Shown here: positions 48,277 to 55,075 of the stretch, one piece after another
Layout of the letters: every line of letters starts with the position of its first letter
Numbering within the stretch: the stretch's first letter is position 1
DNA from: Crocinitomicaceae bacterium
Lineage (GTDB): Bacteria; Bacteroidota; Bacteroidia; Flavobacteriales_D; Crocinitomicaceae
NCBI GenBank assembly: GCA_017983465.1
Contig: JAGOBK010000006.1
Coordinates: 62,001 to 126,000, forward strand
Direction: 5' to 3'
Length of the DNA: 64,000 bases
The notes under the pieces: generated by a model
What the model saw: only the letters and a program-made list of their open reading frames with translations
What the model was told of the DNA's origin: nothing
The model's database searches: none
Program-made: the position numbers and the translations under genes

Positions 48277-49589
48277 TTGTCAAAATTGGAAGGTGCAAGT
48301 ATTAAACTTAGATTTACGGAAGCAAATTTCTCTTGTATTCCGAAACTTTGATTGCTCGAACGAGAACCCAAATTAACACTGAAGTTAACAGAGGAAGCTG
48401 ACATTTGAGCCATAATAGGAAGTCCTAATCCAAAACTCACAGCAGATTCTTGGTATTGAATTGCATTAGTAGTGTATGGCAGAGATTGTGTGTAGTAACC
48501 AATGCGATAAGTCATTTTCTCTAATCCCTTCAAGGTAGAAATGTTTTCCATCAAGCGGGACTCTGGACTAAATTGAGCACCGAAAGAAAGACGTTGAAAC
48601 GAGGTCATTCCGAAGTCAGGAATTAAATCATGAGCATTGTGATCAAGTGCACCAAATTGATAAATGGACGCCATTAGACTCAATTTTGGATGAAGTTCTC
48701 TTGTTTCACGTTTCCATCTTGGAAGCAGAATGCTGTAGTTAAGACCGAGTTCTAACGTGGATGAATTCAACAAGTGAATGCGACTACGACTAAACGCGAT
48801 GGTGTCATAAGTTGAACTAGAGTTAATGTTTGATGCGGTGTAAAATTCATCTTGATAATCACCGGTAATGGTTTGATTCGGGAGATAAACTGAACTTATA
48901 CTGATTAAATGGTTTTTCCCAATTTGTTGTTGAAAATAGGCTCCAAGTTCGTAGTGAAACGAACGTATAATCATGGAGTTGATGTTTATTCCACCTTGAT
49001 TGGAACCGGAAGCGATTAATTTTGCTTGACGTTCATTGGTTACTGTCCCAAATAAATACGAAGCATTACCACCGATCGATAGTTTGGTTTTGGGACGATA
49101 AACAAGTCCGTATGAATAGCCTAAGAACAAGTCCTGAATAGCTCCGCTACCTTTGTACGTGTATTCCAATGAGTCAAATCCTGTAAAAGATTTGTCGGTA
49201 ATTTGGTATCCTCTGGCAGAATAAGGTTTTAATCCGAAAGCGAGTCCCATATTTTTTTTGATGCGTACACCGATAGCAATGTGATCAATCATTCCGGTAA
49301 ATCCAACTTGCGTTTTGGTTTGCTCAGAATAATTAGAAATTCTTGTTTGAATTCCATACGAGTAAAGAGTATTTCCGGTACTGAGCGTGTTGTATGTTGC
49401 TGGATTGTAAAAATTCAAAATGGTGGAGTCAAACACGTTGATGGTGTTTTTACCCAATGCATCGAAAACGCCATGGTTTTGTGCTGAACTTTCACCAAGT
49501 CCATAGTAGGAAGCAGGTTGATTGGTAGTAGATTGCGACCAAGTTTGTGAGAAAACAAAAAGGATAAGGAAATTAAAGAGAATCTTCAT
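48249..49589 (-). CDS. Outer-membrane beta-barrel protein between coaX and lptC
   Basis: A 446-residue barrel with signal peptide MKILFNFLILFVFSQTWSQ. The N-terminal region SYYGLGESSAQNHGVFDALG and NFYNPATYNTL resembles FadL/PorV-like proteins (the NPA box). Strands such as HIAIGVRIKKNMGLAFGLKPYSARGYQI follow, ending in SFGIQEKFASVNLSLILAP. It belongs to a recurring coaX - barrel - lptC group in Bacteroidota; a link to LPS or outer-membrane biogenesis is inferred from that order. Start overlaps the coaX end by 17 nt. Confidence 0.78.
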   Translation of the reverse strand: MKILFNFLILFVFSQTWSQSTTNQPASYYGLGESSAQNHGVFDALGKNTINVFDSTILNFYNPATYNTLSTGNTLYSYGIQTRISNYSEQTKTQVGFTGMIDHIAIGVRIKKNMGLAFGLKPYSARGYQITDKSFTGFDSLEYTYKGSGAIQDLFLGYSYGLVYRPKTKLSIGGNASYLFGTVTNERQAKLIASGSNQGGININSMIIRSFHYELGAYFQQQIGKNHLISISSVYLPNQTITGDYQDEFYTASNINSSSTYDTIAFSRSRIHLLNSSTLELGLNYSILLPRWKRETRELHPKLSLMASIYQFGALDHNAHDLIPDFGMTSFQRLSFGAQFSPESRLMENISTLKGLEKMTYRIGYYTQSLPYTTNAIQYQESAVSFGLGLPIMAQMSASSVNFSVNLGSRSSNQSFGIQEKFASVNLSLILAPSNFDKWFRQRKLD

Positions 49590-50301
49590 TCAGACGGTAA
49601 ATTTCTAGAATTCCTTCTAGGGTTAAATGTTCGAGTACAAAGATGTTACTTTTTTGCTCGAAATCAAAATATCGCGCGTCTCCTCCCGTGAGGTAAACGT
49701 CTAATTCAGGGAATTTTGTTTGGTACAGTTGGATTAATTGGCTGATTTCGGCTTTCCATCCATTAAATACACCACTTTCAATCGATTCCTTCGTGTTTTT
49801 TCCAATGAGTGGCGCGGATGAAAGAACTGGAATCATCGGTAGTTTTGCAGTAAATGTTTGCAGGGATTTAGCTCTCATTTCTAATCCGGGAGATATGGAT
49901 CCACCTTCATACGTTCGCATTGAACTCATGAAGTCAAATTTGATGCAGGTTCCCATATCAACAACTAATTTTGCTTTCGTTGGATTACGGCTGGACACTG
50001 CTGCCATATTGCACAGTCGGTCTATTCCCAATGTTTCGGGAGTTAGGTAGTCCATTTTGAAAGGCAAATTCATTTGAGCATTGATGTAAATCTTGTTATG
50101 AAAAAATTCTTCCAAAGGTTTTTTCCATTCCTCTGAAAGCACAGACGATATCACGATGGGAATGTTACCATTGAGTTCATTCCAAGGAAAAGAGCTCAAA
50201 TCGAAGCGTTTAACACGTGAAATCATGCTATTTTCCACCGATCCGAGTTTCACGTGTGTGTTCCCGGCATCCAATAAATAGGCAGTTGTTTCGTCGCGCA
50301 T
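49573..50301 (-). CDS. coaX: Type III pantothenate kinase
   Basis: A 242-residue ASKHA kinase that starts CoA synthesis from pantothenate and is insensitive to CoA feedback. The motifs are YLLDAGNTHVKLG (phosphate 1, Asp), LGIDRLCNMAAVSS, LVVDMGTCIKFDF (second Asp), GGSISPGLEMRAKSL and VYLTGGDARYF. Slightly shorter than the usual 255 residues but complete. A -7 box sits 4 nt before the ATG, implying a leaderless message for the coaX-barrel-lptC unit. Confidence 0.94.
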   Translation of the reverse strand: MRDETTAYLLDAGNTHVKLGSVENSMISRVKRFDLSSFPWNELNGNIPIVISSVLSEEWKKPLEEFFHNKIYINAQMNLPFKMDYLTPETLGIDRLCNMAAVSSRNPTKAKLVVDMGTCIKFDFMSSMRTYEGGSISPGLEMRAKSLQTFTAKLPMIPVLSSAPLIGKNTKESIESGVFNGWKAEISQLIQLYQTKFPELDVYLTGGDARYFDFEQKSNIFVLEHLTLEGILEIYRLNEDSL

Positions 50302-50340: not shown

Positions 50341-50375
50341 TTTTTGATTAGAAATAAAAAAAAGTGTTAAATTTG
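50341..50375 (+). promoter_or_regulatory. Promoter of the tRNA-Phe gene
   Basis: TTTTTG at 50341-50346, 21-nt spacer, TAAATTTG at 50368-50375. The mature tRNA begins 14 nt after the box, leaving about 10 nt of 5' leader for RNase P. Confidence 0.65.
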
Positions 50376-50389
50376 CCCCACCAATAGCT

Positions 50390-50462
50390 GGTGCCTTAGC
50401 TCAGTTGGTAGAGCAAAGGACTGAAAATCCTTGTGTCCCTGGTTCGATTCCTGGAGGCACCA
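50390..50462 (+). tRNA. tRNA-Phe (anticodon GAA)
   Basis: A complete 73-nt cloverleaf: acceptor GGTGCCT/AGGCACC, D arm GCTC/GAGC, anticodon stem AAGGA/TCCTT with loop CTGAAAA (anticodon GAA at positions 34-36), five-base variable loop, T loop TTCGATT, discriminator A at 50462. The 3' CCA is not encoded. The T stem CCTGG/CCTGG has a U-U mismatch at positions 51-63. The last 17 nt, from T-loop position 57 to the discriminator, are repeated downstream twice more at the head of each GIY-YIG unit. Confidence 0.97.
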
Positions 50463-50470
50463 CTAGCCAA

Positions 50471-50500
50471 AGTCCTGACGGAAACGTCAGGACTTTTTTT
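50471..50500 (+). terminator. Hairpin terminator of tRNA-Phe (unit 1)
   Basis: AGTCCTGACG (50471-50480), GAAA tetraloop, CGTCAGGACT, then a run of seven T. A perfect 10-bp stem with a GNRA loop. It stands between the tRNA and the first GIY-YIG ORF, so the nuclease would need read-through or another promoter. Confidence 0.9.
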
Positions 50501-50505
50501 ATGAG

Positions 50506-50751
50506 ATGTATTTTGTGTATGTATTATATTCGGAAAAGGCAAAATGTAAGTATACCGGCTATACTGAAGACCTCACACGTCGATTGAATGAACACAATCA
50601 GGGATTATTAGGCAAGTTCACAAAAGGAAAAGGTCCTTGGGTTTTGATACATGTGGAGGAATTCTCCACTATAAAAGAAGCAATCATCCGAGAAAAAGAA
50701 ATAAAAACAGGAAAAGGGCGAGATTACATTAAGCAAAAGACTGGATATTAA
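50506..50751 (+). CDS. GIY-YIG domain nuclease, copy 1
   Basis: An 81-residue single-domain GIY-YIG protein. FVYVLYSEKAKCKYTGYT carries the two short strands of the motif (YVLY and YTG in place of GIY and YIG). DLTRRLNEHN supplies the conserved Arg, and EAIIREKEIKTGKGRD the conserved Glu helix. GPWVLIHVEEF is the central strand. It belongs to the small YhbQ/UPF0213-like class. The domain normally cuts one DNA strand; there is no added DNA-binding domain. The ATG lies 6 nt after the tRNA terminator, and no promoter of its own is seen. Whether it moves the repeat unit is a hypothesis. Confidence 0.85.
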   Translation: MYFVYVLYSEKAKCKYTGYTEDLTRRLNEHNQGLLGKFTKGKGPWVLIHVEEFSTIKEAIIREKEIKTGKGRDYIKQKTGY

Positions 50752-50752
50752 A

Positions 50753-50791
50753 GTCCCTGGTCCGCCGCGGCGGAGATTCCTGGAGGCACCA
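50753..50791 (+). other. tRNA T-arm remnant split by a 14-nt palindrome, junction 1
   Basis: gtccctggt copies tRNA bases 50435-50443, and gattcctggaggcacca copies 50446-50462. Between them the two T-loop bases tc are replaced by ccgccgcggcgga, so that TCCGCCGCGGCGGA (50761-50774) forms a perfect palindrome. It starts 1 nt after the GIY-YIG stop codon. It is GC-rich against an AT-rich background. Confidence 0.9.
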
Positions 50792-50799
50792 CTAGCCAA

Positions 50800-50829
50800 A
50801 GTCCTGACGGAAACGTCAGGACTTTTTTT
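50800..50829 (+). terminator. Hairpin terminator, unit 2
   Basis: Identical to the unit 1 hairpin: 10-bp stem, GAAA loop, T7. Confidence 0.85.
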
Positions 50830-50834
50830 ATGAG

Positions 50835-51080
50835 ATGTATTTTGTGTATGTATTATATTCGGAAAAGGCAAAATGTAAGTATACCGGCTATACTGAAGAC
50901 CTCACACGTCGATTGAATGAACACAATCAGGGATTATTAGGCAAGTTCACAAAAGGAAAAGGTCCTTGGGTTTTGATACATGTGGAGGAATTCTCCACTA
51001 TAAAAGAAGCAATCATCCGAGAAAAAGAAATAAAAACAGGAAAAGGGCGAGATTACATTAAGCAAAAGACTGGATATTAA
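50835..51080 (+). CDS. GIY-YIG domain nuclease, copy 2
   Basis: Exact duplicate of copy 1, 329 bp downstream: the same 81 residues and, on inspection, the same nucleotides including third codon positions and flanks. Identity at silent sites points to recent duplication or gene conversion. Like copy 1 it lies directly behind a terminator hairpin. Confidence 0.85.
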   Translation: MYFVYVLYSEKAKCKYTGYTEDLTRRLNEHNQGLLGKFTKGKGPWVLIHVEEFSTIKEAIIREKEIKTGKGRDYIKQKTGY

Positions 51081-51081
51081 A

Positions 51082-51120
51082 GTCCCTGGTCCGCCGCGGC
51101 GGAGATTCCTGGAGGCACCA
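51082..51120 (+). other. tRNA T-arm remnant split by a 14-nt palindrome, junction 2
   Basis: Same arrangement as junction 1, with the palindrome TCCGCCGCGGCGGA at 51090-51103 and the tRNA 3' segment at 51104-51120. Confidence 0.9.
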
Positions 51121-51128
51121 CTAGCAGA

Positions 51129-51158
51129 AACCCTGACGGAAACGTTGGGGTTTTTTTT
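51129..51158 (+). terminator. Hairpin terminator, unit 3, with compensatory changes
   Basis: AACCCTGACG (51129-51138), GAAA, CGTTGGGGTT, then T. Compared with units 1-2, G-C has become A-T and T-A has become C-G in paired positions, and two other pairs became G-T wobbles. All ten pairs persist. Confidence 0.85.
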
Positions 51159-51163
51159 ATGAG

Positions 51164-51257
51164 ATGTATTTTGTGTATGTATTATATTCGGAAAAGGCAA
51201 AATGTAAGTATACAGGCTATACTGAAGACCTCACACGTCGATTGAATGAACACAATC
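51164..51257 (+). pseudogene. GIY-YIG nuclease, truncated copy 3
   Basis: The first 31 codons match copies 1 and 2 except for one base (tacaggc for taccggc). After 51257 the sequence diverges; the frame adds 15 unrelated residues to a stop at 51302-51304. The GIY and YIG strands and the Arg remain, but the Glu helix is lost, so a working nuclease is not expected. Confidence 0.85.
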
Positions 51258-51325
51258 CTGCTCTGCTGCGGTATAACTACTTCTTGGTTGGATGCAATGA
51301 ATAATCTTTACTCGTAACTTTAAGA

Positions 51326-54300
51326 TTAGCGAATCAAGGTGATAAATCCTTGTTTTTTGACTTCGGTTCCGCCTAGCATGACGCCGTTTAACAAGTAAAA
51401 ATAAACACCATCCGTGTGTGGTTTTCCATCGGTCGAAAGTCCATCCCAAGCCGCTACACCGGTTTGATCCTCTAAAATGCTGACCAAATTACCCCAGCGA
51501 TTGAAAATCATGATATCATACGATTTAAAAGCTGGATAGGGCAGTACGACGAAGTCATTGACACCATCCCCATTTGGAGTAAACACGTTTGGTACCCAAA
51601 TGTCAGGATCGCTGACGAAAACTGTCGTTTCGTAGGTGGAAACACATCCTAATTGATCCACAACCGTGAGTGTGATAACATGTGGTCCTCCTTGTGAAAA
51701 GGACGTAGTTGGCGCTGTGTTCGAATTCCACGTAAAGGTGGAGTCTGTATCTAAATTCCAAGTCCAACTGACAATCGGTGCATTCGTAAAGGTCGATTGG
51801 TCATTGAAATTGATAATGCCGTTTATGTCTGCATAAACTGGATTTGGAACAAAAAAGGCGTCCAAATCGTCGTCATTTACCGTGATTGGATCCAAAGGTA
51901 AAAGAATCTGACACCCAACGGAGTCGAAAATGGTAATGCTTGGTTGATACGTTCCCGGTGTTGCGTAGAAGTAATTAAAATTCAAAGAATCTGAGTAGAT
52001 GGTGCCATCACCAAGATTCCAAACTAAACTATCGATGTTAGAAACATTCGTCAAGTAAAATAGCGCTCCTTGTGCACAAATCGTTGCATCTTGCAGCCAA
52101 TTTGGTGTACCCATCGGACCGCCAATTGAAATGTAGTCAAGAATCGTTGTGTCATCTGTACAACCATATTGATCAGTCACAATGAAGTTTAAATCAAAGG
52201 ATCCATTAGTCACAAGTGTATTCGATGGATTCTGAAGTATGGAGTTGTTACCATTCCCAAAGGACCAATTCCAACCGGTAATATCACCATAGGAGAAGGA
52301 GGAATCTTGAAAATTGCAAAAAATGGGTGGACAATCGTATTCTCCGTTTGCATTTGGAATAGCGCCGGTGAAAAAGAAATTCGGAATGGCGAGCGGTGTG
52401 GACATGATCAAGTTGCGATTCAAGGTGTCTTTACAGCCGTTTCCATCGGTCGTGATGAGTGTTAAAATGTGCGAATTTGACAATTGTCCGTTATTTGGAT
52501 TGGTTAAGGTAACAAGTGTATCTATACTCGTTCCAATCATTGAGCCATTTAGAAACCATTCATAACTTAAATTACCTATTCCTGTAGATTGGTTGATCGT
52601 TAGATTCGAATCCAAATCACATAAAACCGTATCGATGTCAAAGTCTGATGTCGGTTTCGTAATAGTAATTGTAACTCCAGTTGGCAGGGAAGTACAGCCG
52701 AAAATATCCGTTGCTATAATCGTCGCAGCGTAGGCACCTTCCCCAAAAAACGTATGAACGATGGGTTGGTTGACGTTATTCGTAACTATCGTGGAATTAT
52801 CGTCCGAAAAACTGGTGCTAAATGAACTCAGAGGGAGTCCATTAGCTAGACTAAAGGACGTATTGGTGAATGGAACGGTAAATGGTGAGCATCCGCTGTA
52901 AGCATCTGCGAGAATTCCTGCAATAGGCTTGTTCACGACTTTCACAGTTTGTGTGGCTGTTGATGAACACCCCACACTATTCGTTACCAGGTGAGAAATG
53001 GTGTAATTTCCCGGGGCGGGATAGGTATAGGAAATATTCGGCGCATTATTGATAAACTGACCATTCCCCATGTTGTAAAACCAATTACTTACCGGATGTG
53101 ATCCTGTAGCTCCACTCCATGATGTGCTGATATCCGTCAAGTTAATTGCGGTTCCGTTACAGACAGTGTCGTTGGACATGGTGAACTGACTGGCAAGCTG
53201 AGAAATGGTGATGGTCGATGTAATGCTGTCCGAGCAGCCAGTGGTGTAGTTGTGTATGACCTGTTCAATGTTGTATGTCCCATAGGTCGAATACGTATGA
53301 CTGGTATTTCCGCCATTGGGGACATCGAGTTGGGCGTTGGTGAAATTCACATTTGGAGTATTGTCAAAGAACTCATAATGCATGTCCACGTTGTCAGAAA
53401 GTACACCGTGAATGGAATTGTCATCGATTGCTACGTTTACAGGAAAGGAGCTTGGATTACAAAACAAAGAGGCACTCGGTGAAAACTGGGCGATTGGCGC
53501 TAGAATATAAACGGCATCTTCGACGATAAACGTATCCTTACATCCCCTAAAGTCTGCTATGAATGTAACGTCGAAATAGCCAGTATCTGATTCAAATTGG
53601 TGTGTTGGATTCTGATCAATGGATGTTCCGTCTCCAAAATCCCAGAAATACGTGACTTCATTGGCATTGTGCGGTACTGAGATATACGTTGAACTGGTGA
53701 ATATTACATCGTCATTGGAGCAAGCAATCAACGGGGTGTAGGTGAAACTTACTGAGTCGATGTGTCCCACCGTCACATAATCGTTTTTAATAATCGTATC
53801 TGTACAGCCTGATTGGGTCGTGATGATTAATTGAACATCGTATACACCAACTTGATACGCTTGTGCTGGAGGGAAATGACCATTGAACGTTTGACCGTTT
53901 CCGAAGTTCCATTGCCAAGAAACAATCGGATTCGAAGGTGTGAACGAAGTATCAATGAAATTGACAACGAGTGGATCACAGCCGGCTGTATCAATAGCAT
54001 AGAATCCAGCTTGGACATTCGTTATATTTATATAATCATTTAAAGTCGTTGAACCTGTGCATCCAGCTGCTGTAGTTAAACTTAGTGTGACATCATACAA
54101 GCCACTTTGAGTATAAATATGAGGCGGTGGTGTTAAGCCAGTGTATGTTTGACCATCTCCAAAGGTCCAAACATACGTACCTGGTATCGTTGTACTGCTG
54201 GTAAATTGGATGGATCCTGGTGCACAGTTGGTAATCGGATTCGCACTGAAAATAGGATTGGTATTGGCTTGAATGGTAATGGGTTGTGTAATCGTTGAGG

Positions 54301-55075
54301 TACAACCTGAGCTCGTGTTTTGCGAGGTCAATTGCACGGTATAGGTTCCGGGTGCGTTGAATGCGAATGAAGGATTTTCTAAGGAACTGTTTCCCTGGGT
54401 TCCAAAATTCCAATTCCATGCATTGGCTCCCGCCGTTGAATTATCTTGAAATGAAATAGCTTGTCCAACGCAACCAAAAGTAGGTGCGGTAATTCCAGCT
54501 TGAAAATTCGCTACTTGAATACTTTGTGTGCTTGTTGCGACACAAGAGGTACTTGTATTCGTCACGTTTAAAGTGATGGTATAACTTCCAGCGGAATTAT
54601 AGGTAATATTCGGTGGATTCGCGGCACTTGAGTTCTGACTATTCCCAAAATTCCAAGCATTGCTAAAATTCGCTCCACTGGAAGAATTATTGACATAAGA
54701 CAAGGTAAGAGGAACGGTACATCCCAAACCGTTAACAGAAAAAGCAACAATAGGTAAGGGATTTACAGTGACAAATGCTGTTTTTATTTCAGCATCCACA
54801 TTACCAACTGAATTTGTTACGACTAAAGTAATGGTAAACGTACCAGCTGTGGTAAATGCATGAGATGGACTAACCTGTGTTGAAAGTGCACCATCTCCAA
54901 AATCCCAAGCATTTGAAACAATGGCGCTTGTACCATTGGGAATCGATGTATTTGTAAAGTTGACCGGGACACCAACGCACACCACCAAAGGATTTGCTGT
55001 AAAATTAGCTGTAGGTGTTTGCGCACGCGAAAAAAACGTGAATGCAAGTAGAAATACAGCGAATAGTATGCGCAT
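51326..55075 (-). CDS. Large PKD-repeat protein with T9SS type B sorting domain
   Basis: A 1249-residue exported protein. Signal peptide MRILFAVFLLAFTFFSRAQ is followed by about a dozen PKD/Ig-like modules of 80-90 residues, recognisable by strands such as AWDFGDGALSTQVSPSHAF, NWNFGTQGNSSLENPSFAF, VWTFGDGQTYTG and FWDFGDGTSIDQNPTHQF. The C-terminus is the gliding-associated type B signal: WVPNVFTPNGDGVNDFVVLP, YDIMIFNRWGNLV, AAWDGLSTDGKPHTDGVYFY, KKQGFITLIR. It should be exported by the T9SS, and the PKD array suggests a long surface adhesin or structural protein. Its 3' end is 68 nt from the truncated GIY-YIG copy. Confidence 0.9.
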   Translation of the reverse strand: MRILFAVFLLAFTFFSRAQTPTANFTANPLVVCVGVPVNFTNTSIPNGTSAIVSNAWDFGDGALSTQVSPSHAFTTAGTFTITLVVTNSVGNVDAEIKTAFVTVNPLPIVAFSVNGLGCTVPLTLSYVNNSSSGANFSNAWNFGNSQNSSAANPPNITYNSAGSYTITLNVTNTSTSCVATSTQSIQVANFQAGITAPTFGCVGQAISFQDNSTAGANAWNWNFGTQGNSSLENPSFAFNAPGTYTVQLTSQNTSSGCTSTITQPITIQANTNPIFSANPITNCAPGSIQFTSSTTIPGTYVWTFGDGQTYTGLTPPPHIYTQSGLYDVTLSLTTAAGCTGSTTLNDYINITNVQAGFYAIDTAGCDPLVVNFIDTSFTPSNPIVSWQWNFGNGQTFNGHFPPAQAYQVGVYDVQLIITTQSGCTDTIIKNDYVTVGHIDSVSFTYTPLIACSNDDVIFTSSTYISVPHNANEVTYFWDFGDGTSIDQNPTHQFESDTGYFDVTFIADFRGCKDTFIVEDAVYILAPIAQFSPSASLFCNPSSFPVNVAIDDNSIHGVLSDNVDMHYEFFDNTPNVNFTNAQLDVPNGGNTSHTYSTYGTYNIEQVIHNYTTGCSDSITSTITISQLASQFTMSNDTVCNGTAINLTDISTSWSGATGSHPVSNWFYNMGNGQFINNAPNISYTYPAPGNYTISHLVTNSVGCSSTATQTVKVVNKPIAGILADAYSGCSPFTVPFTNTSFSLANGLPLSSFSTSFSDDNSTIVTNNVNQPIVHTFFGEGAYAATIIATDIFGCTSLPTGVTITITKPTSDFDIDTVLCDLDSNLTINQSTGIGNLSYEWFLNGSMIGTSIDTLVTLTNPNNGQLSNSHILTLITTDGNGCKDTLNRNLIMSTPLAIPNFFFTGAIPNANGEYDCPPIFCNFQDSSFSYGDITGWNWSFGNGNNSILQNPSNTLVTNGSFDLNFIVTDQYGCTDDTTILDYISIGGPMGTPNWLQDATICAQGALFYLTNVSNIDSLVWNLGDGTIYSDSLNFNYFYATPGTYQPSITIFDSVGCQILLPLDPITVNDDDLDAFFVPNPVYADINGIINFNDQSTFTNAPIVSWTWNLDTDSTFTWNSNTAPTTSFSQGGPHVITLTVVDQLGCVSTYETTVFVSDPDIWVPNVFTPNGDGVNDFVVLPYPAFKSYDIMIFNRWGNLVSILEDQTGVAAWDGLSTDGKPHTDGVYFYLLNGVMLGGTEVKKQGFITLIR

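Follow-up and report, generated by a model that had tools for sequence, protein, structure and literature searches.

In the stretch of DNA analysed here (the window, 64,000 nucleotides from a Crocinitomicaceae genome), an intact tRNA-Phe gene is followed by tandem units which start with a copy of the tRNA 3' end and carry a gene for a small GIY-YIG nuclease. We interpret these units as a minimal mobile element of the homing type, which encodes a nuclease, inserts into tRNA genes and restores them, and we put the probability of this reading at roughly 0.6. Sequence comparison shows the anatomy of the units, their insertion relative to empty sites, their recurrence at many tRNAs and the association of nuclease lineage with tRNA isotype, together with signs of lateral movement, purifying selection and the decay of distal units. 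We infer cleavage, the cleavage site, the repair pathway, the role of the hairpin and expression.

Tandem units behind tRNA-Phe and empty sites in relatives

A repeat search located the starts of the direct repeat at 50446, 50775 and 51104, which corresponds to a spacing of exactly 329 bp (Table 1). Copies 1 and 2 are identical, and copy 3 shows 94% identity over 154 nt and stops at 51257, which confirms the two identical units and the truncated third that the initial annotation had seen behind the tRNA. An exact repeat of 329 bp is not due to chance; the copy number in the window is that of one assembled contig. Every copy starts with GATTCCTGGAGGCACCAC, which corresponds to nucleotides 57-74 of the tRNA, beginning at G57. 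The start at T-loop position 57 had been recognized correctly, but the length of the tRNA end had been given as 17 nt and was measured as 18 nt. In each copy the tRNA end is followed by TAGC and then by a terminator-like hairpin with a T-run (12 pairs; found in copies 1 and 2). ORFs 1 and 2 encode identical proteins of 81 amino acids, and the frame of copy 3 comprises 46 codons. At its end, each full unit has GTCCCTGG, which copies the T-arm on its 5' side, followed by the palindrome TCCGCCGCGGCGGA; in the displaced copy this palindrome occupies the place of the T-loop TTC. The description of units with a terminator hairpin, an 81-residue GIY-YIG ORF and an end made of the 5' T-arm and a palindrome was therefore right. 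The motif upstream of the tRNA gene (TTTG ... TAAATTTG) may be a tRNA promoter of the Bacteroidota type.

Table 1. Features of the tRNA-Phe locus, given as positions in the window.
Feature	Position	Strand	Basis
Left flank: coaX (type III pantothenate kinase), kept at empty sites	49573..50301	-	Pfam, synteny
Possible tRNA promoter, TTTG ... TAAATTTG	50343..50375	+	read from sequence
tRNA-Phe (GAA), intact target gene	50390..50463	+	ARAGORN; Rfam RF00005, 70.3 bits
Unit 1 (329 bp): tRNA 3' end, terminator, GIY-YIG ORF, 5' T-arm copy, palindrome	50446..50774	+	repeat search, sequence
Unit 1 terminator hairpin	50469..50496	+	repeat and hairpin searches
GIY-YIG nuclease ORF 1, 81 aa	50506..50751	+	ORF call, Pfam, AlphaFold pLDDT 95.8
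GTCCCTGG, 5' T-arm copy of unit 1	50753..50760	+	repeat search, sequence
Palindrome TCCGCCGCGGCGGA at the unit 1 junction, replacing T-loop TTC	50761..50774	+	repeat search, sequence
Unit 2 (329 bp), identical to unit 1	50775..51103	+	repeat search
Unit 2 terminator hairpin	50798..50825	+	hairpin search
GIY-YIG nuclease ORF 2, 81 aa	50835..51080	+	ORF call
GTCCCTGG, 5' T-arm copy of unit 2	51082..51089	+	repeat search
Palindrome of unit 2	51090..51103	+	repeat search
Unit 3, truncated, 94% identical, starting with displaced tRNA 3' end and terminator	51104..51257	+	repeat search
Remnant GIY-YIG ORF, 46 codons, homology to about 51257	51164..51304	+	ORF call, Pfam
Right flank: PKD/CHU_C type IX secretion protein gene, kept at several empty sites	51326..55075	-	Pfam, synteny

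The exact palindrome occurs 23 times in the same genome. Many copies lie in unrelated minisatellites of the "aatgtgctag" type (contigs C12, C10 and C2 of G000; L069, L071, L072, L075), so the palindrome need not belong to the element.

Of 30 congeneric tRNA-Phe loci, at least 22 are empty, five have an intact element and one has a remnant. With one species per genome, occupied and empty sites are compared between species. Empty tRNA-Phe sites with the flanks of the window were found in at least nine congeners, which keep the order coaX, tRNA-Phe, CHU_C gene. The distance from the tRNA start to the CHU_C match is 119-139 bp at empty sites versus 940 bp in the window and 556 bp in L038. Since the flanks are kept and the CHU_C distance is larger at occupied sites, DNA was gained exactly behind the tRNA. 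Locus L094 has a terminator of the window type without an ORF and without a displaced end. These results support the proposal that a minimal, nuclease-only element inserts at tRNA genes and leaves the tRNA intact.

The order of the units within arrays is also polar. According to a tally by eye from the coordinates, which covered arrays containing both sound and damaged or truncated units, the damaged one is farthest from the tRNA in 14 of 16 arrays, and the order is mixed in the other two. In both orientations, this polarity fits insertion beside the tRNA with older units being pushed away, and the displacement of older units downstream, as the initial annotation had suggested, is borne out by the distal position of the damaged units.

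Recurrence and anatomy at other tRNA genes

For identification of further loci we searched 100 related genomes with the protein and analysed all 109 matches with E values up to 1e-4, which gives an unbiased set. A tRNA on the same strand lies within 400 bp of 52 of these 109 GIY-YIG matches (upstream in 44 and downstream in 8), and an antisense tRNA was found in a single case. A generous null model predicts 0.65 upstream tRNAs versus the 44 observed (P ~1e-67), and the strand bias of the tRNA linkage alone gives P ~1e-14. Against our reading stand the 56 matches with no tRNA inside 400 bp, though about 20 of these hold tRNA fragments and most others fall into a separate clade. Similar units are present at other tRNAs, with about 15 isotypes carrying the arrangement. 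Like the empty sites, these units turned out in favour of the proposal in the initial annotation. In a sample across the phylum, 51 of 118 genomes have a match with E values up to 1e-8. The best loci of 29 of the 51 positive genomes were inspected for neighbouring tRNAs, and 19 have one on the same strand within 400 bp, none an antisense one. Genome G131, a single contig of 2.59 Mb, contains two GIY-YIG loci linked to same-strand tRNAs, and errors of draft assembly are therefore not the explanation of the pattern. Outside the Bacteroidota, similar loci occur in records labelled as Ignavibacteria, Chlorobiota, Omnitrophota and Shapirobacteria. A scan of viral contigs revealed no relative of the tRNA-linked clade. 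Phage and plasmid records gave only distant YazA-like matches and no close relative of the clade, and carriage by phages or plasmids was rejected on this basis. The genome of the window also contains a second, different GIY-YIG gene (L004, G000:C2:411437-411661). It is found 256 bp behind the gene for tmRNA, whose terminator is repeated on the far side of the GIY-YIG ORF.

In loci of the 3'-type, the tRNA 3' end is duplicated as in the units of the window. In 48 of 71 such loci, tRNA sequence of 14 nt or more recurs exactly, as a displaced copy, beyond the ORF, usually directly behind a GC-rich hairpin whose sequence varies between elements, even inside one genome. A terminator-like hairpin separates tRNA and ORF in 63 of the 71, the median distance being 52 bp, which suggests that the nuclease is probably expressed by read-through. 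A mirrored form is located on the upstream side of the tRNA. It duplicates the 5' part, with the intact tRNA at the far end and the hairpin mostly in the D-loop (e.g., L009, L022, L061, L109, L133, L198 and L212). Here, an exact tRNA copy of at least 14 nt was found on the other side in 14 of 19 loci. At L195, units are located on both sides of one tRNA-Pro. The junction is in the T-loop for Phe, many Met, His, Val and Pro, in the variable region for Arg and Ala and at the border of variable region and T-stem for Met; it was also found in the anticodon arm. The T-loop was dropped as the common site, since junctions in the D-loop, anticodon arm and variable region and the mirrored 5' form identify it as the site of one subfamily.

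The 3' ends of tRNA genes are common targets of integrases, whose insertion leaves such ends displaced, and the displaced ends seen here could in principle be old attachment sites of integrative elements. This origin is extremely improbable, as the ORF content of the units revealed no tyrosine or serine integrase gene in any short unit read, the units are repeated, 300-400 bp long and share the nuclease ORF as their content, and the mirrored form duplicates the 5' side of the tRNA. A group I intron was rejected because Rfam gave no intron match at E values up to 1.

The largest array consists of eight tandem GIY-YIG units of about 366 bp each, located behind the 3' half of a tRNA-Met (L222, G153:C34:6988-9763). 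ARAGORN detects no 5' half of this tRNA-Met, and the older displaced copies contain extra hairpins. Units without an ORF exist as well. L078 retains the C-terminus of the nuclease and the hairpin, and at L008 ORF-less units stand on either side of a nuclease unit. In the genome of the window, two ORF-less units of 52 bp are located on the 5' side of a tRNA-Met (L073, G000:C10 near 158.2 kb); they contain the palindrome of the window in the D-loop and represent a mirrored ORF-less form. In Aquimarina, the displaced pseudo-tRNA of a tRNA-Arg locus (L184) has retained TTCTAA as its anticodon loop, but the stem is rewritten (CCGAT/TCGGG), so that the "hairpin" can be an altered anticodon arm.

Such hairpin units raise the question of what is mobile. 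In analogy to REP/RAYT systems, the hairpin might be what moves and the GIY-YIG protein what mobilises it, with the pieces of tRNA left as by-products of insertion beside tRNA stem-loops. The many palindrome copies away from GIY-YIG ORFs in the genome of the window, the ORF-less hairpin units at tRNAs (L008, L073, L078), the extra hairpins of L222 and the similarity of the protein fold to the branched-DNA nuclease Slx1 (see below) would agree with this. However, the hairpin is the variable part of the elements and the tRNA-regenerating layout the constant one, and we consider a hairpin-centred system unlikely. A RAYT (Y1 transposase) gene is absent from the unit, in which GIY-YIG is the sole conserved ORF, and the palindromes are dispersed. 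Four tRNA-less GIY-YIG genes (L152, L156, L187 and L192) are located among other dispersed palindromic repeats (CCCTTCGACAGGCTCAGGG; GTCATTCCAGCGTAGGCTGGAATCC), which suggests that small GIY-YIG proteins and hairpin repeats are associated more widely; L152 and L156 are placed in a separate, unlinked clade of the tree.

The nuclease, its phylogeny and signs of movement

The protein of the window matches the Pfam GIY-YIG family (PF01541, E 3e-18) and consists of this single domain, modelled by AlphaFold with a pLDDT of 95.8. The model shows no obvious DNA-recognition domain beyond the catalytic fold of 81 amino acids, and searches of PHROGs and NCBIfam gave no family for the protein. By sequence, its nearest solved relatives are the UPF0213 proteins 1zg2 and 1ywl (E 4e-9 and 2e-7), which are structural-genomics proteins with no function given in their PDB entries. 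By fold, the model matches 1zg2, 1ywl and Slx1, with I-TevI and UvrC being more distant; among functionally characterised folds, Slx1 is the best match. Small GIY-YIG proteins of the UPF0213/YazA type are thus nearest to the window protein by both sequence and fold, but form a sister clade without tRNA linkage. The hallmarks of the superfamily (conserved Tyr, Tyr, Arg and Glu, and the fold) are present, and Y5, Y16, G18, R26, H30, E63 and K67 are invariant in 36 relatives.

Between species within the same tRNA-Phe subfamily, dN/dS is 0.06-0.09, which indicates strong purifying selection on the nuclease. Such selection would also be expected for a domesticated host function, for example control of tRNA dosage, or for a defence or toxin-antitoxin system with mutated pseudo-tRNAs as decoys, and the kept anticodon loop and rewritten stem of L184 could be seen as such a decoy. 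The patchy presence at congeneric tRNA-Phe loci (five intact elements and one remnant at 30), the decay of distal units and the lateral movement described below speak against a host role, which we regard as very improbable.

In the protein tree, which has few columns and many open forks, 77 of the 88 rows of the tRNA-linked clade are linked to a tRNA, compared to none of the 32 rows of an inner unlinked clade. On the same rows, 17 changes are needed for tRNA isotype versus 27 for host family. The nuclease is therefore inherited together with its target more than with its host; the groups for Leu, Asn and Ala, for example, are each distributed over three or four host families.

Movement between tRNAs is suggested by two mirrored elements of one genome, L061 at tRNA-Thr and L063 at tRNA-Phe. 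Their proteins are 89% identical and they share the same D-loop junction, but each is flanked by the duplicated first 20 nt of its own target. Judged from the sequence, this argues for movement between tRNAs with a target-derived duplication, or for later gene conversion. We had first assumed that an element brings its own tRNA end in every case, and revised this because the duplicated end of L061 and L063 matches the target. The duplicated tRNA part matches the local target in the window lineage as well, and at L007 and L008 the terminator of the element is unlike the displaced host terminator.

Synonymous divergence of the nuclease was compared with that of the adjacent coaX, with approximate totals of synonymous sites. 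It is 0.24 versus 1.19 for L040-L041 (P ~1e-6) and 0.12 versus 0.52 for L007-L008 (P ~2e-4). Low nuclease dS in these two pairs is what would be expected for lateral spread to a cognate site. The pairs window-L038 and window-L040 showed no difference in divergence between nuclease and coaX, which is compatible with vertical descent.

These data also bear on passive local duplication, in which slippage or unequal crossover between short tRNA-derived repeats builds the arrays and the nuclease plays no role. Short direct repeats ease unequal crossover, units 1 and 2 of the window are identical and in tandem and could indeed stem from a recent duplication of this kind, and both spacer-terminator copies are identical within a genome but different between genomes. 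Passive duplication alone does not readily account for the same orientation at about 15 isotypes, a nuclease tree that follows the isotype, the mirrored form, the Thr/Phe pair of L061 and L063, or element dS well below that of the neighbouring gene, and as the general explanation it appears quite unlikely.

Proposed mechanism and relation to known systems

In our preferred reading, insertion with regeneration of the tRNA gene, the GIY-YIG protein would cut the tRNA gene in one arm, which would be the T-loop for the window subfamily. Repair would be templated on an allele bearing the element, starting on one side of the tRNA and ending by annealing at the duplicated tRNA part. The predicted product consists of the 5' part of the tRNA, the tRNA 3' end with terminator, the nuclease ORF, a short copy of the 5' arm, the hairpin and the displaced 3' end, and the tRNA would remain whole. 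In the simplest proposal, the hairpin breaks the target site in the displaced copy and thereby prevents recutting. The site is kept in the intact tRNA, so that the process could repeat and lead to tandem arrays with the newest unit nearest to the tRNA. A sister chromosome as template would cause growth of the array, and DNA entering from outside would let the element spread from cell to cell. The mirrored form may arise by the same process from the 5' side, with promoter and 5' half being duplicated. The nuclease is probably expressed from transcripts that pass the tRNA terminator or that start at the duplicated promoter of the tRNA. As many junctions are located in loops of the tRNA fold and the protein has an Slx1-like fold, recognition of a cruciform or a folded single strand is an alternative to recognition of sequence.

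If this reading is true, a mobile element is widespread but has gone unnoticed in the tRNA genes of Bacteroidota and of some other phyla; its single gene of about 80 codons would place it among the smallest autonomous elements. It would show that a nuclease without integrase or transposase can invade essential genes cheaply by carrying or regenerating the broken part, and it would account for many short GIY-YIG genes, for displaced pieces of tRNA and for breaks in assemblies beside tRNAs. Furthermore, bacterial homing with target regeneration would become directly testable, and the tRNA-specific subfamilies could supply small site-specific nucleases.

The elements are real, widespread and, to our knowledge, undescribed, and there is a fair chance that they deserve a class of their own. 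More tentatively, a new class of prokaryotic transposable elements could be defined by a single GIY-YIG nuclease gene, a gene-restoring and self-renewing insertion which duplicates the 5' or 3' part of the target and brings in a hairpin, ORF-less derivatives mobilised in trans, and moves between isotypes; we lean slightly against this full definition. We place the elements among the homing-nuclease elements because the key logic has precedents.

The initial annotation knew of no described system of this form. A literature search, with most subscription journals outside its scope, revealed no description of the bacterial elements; fungal mobile ORFs and phage SegB are precedents for their logic. 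The tyrT repeats of E. coli also follow a tRNA gene in tandem, and every repeat opens with the 3' end of the tRNA; they are not known to contain a nuclease ORF or a hairpin-marked junction.

SegB is a free-standing GIY-YIG homing endonuclease linked to tRNA genes in phages (PMC13096335, PMC2988022). Its activity was found to be needed for tandem amplification of a segment containing tRNA and nuclease genes, with microhomology at the junction, and the survey given there covers proteins of phages and archaeal viruses only (PMC13096335). It resembles the window elements in the linkage of a GIY-YIG nuclease to tRNA genes, but acts in phage genomes, where whole tRNA genes are amplified (PMC13096335, PMC2988022), and is not known to involve a hairpin or partial regeneration of a tRNA.

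Mobile ORFs of fungal mitochondria were described in Allomyces atp6, Rhizopus atp9 and Glomus atp6, atp9, cox2 and nad3 (PMC3630166). A free-standing endonuclease ORF of the LAGLIDADG or, in Glomus atp9, the GIY-YIG type carries the 3' end of the host gene, which is rebuilt as a hybrid while the native 3' end is displaced downstream (PMC3630166). In both systems, a nuclease ORF inserts with a copy of the host-gene end that restores the gene, and the native end is displaced. The elements described here differ in that they reside in bacterial chromosomes and at tRNA rather than protein genes, as units of 300-400 bp that form tandem arrays, have a hairpin in the displaced copy and also occur in a mirrored 5' form. 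In contrast to classic homing, the intact tRNA retains the putative cleavage site.
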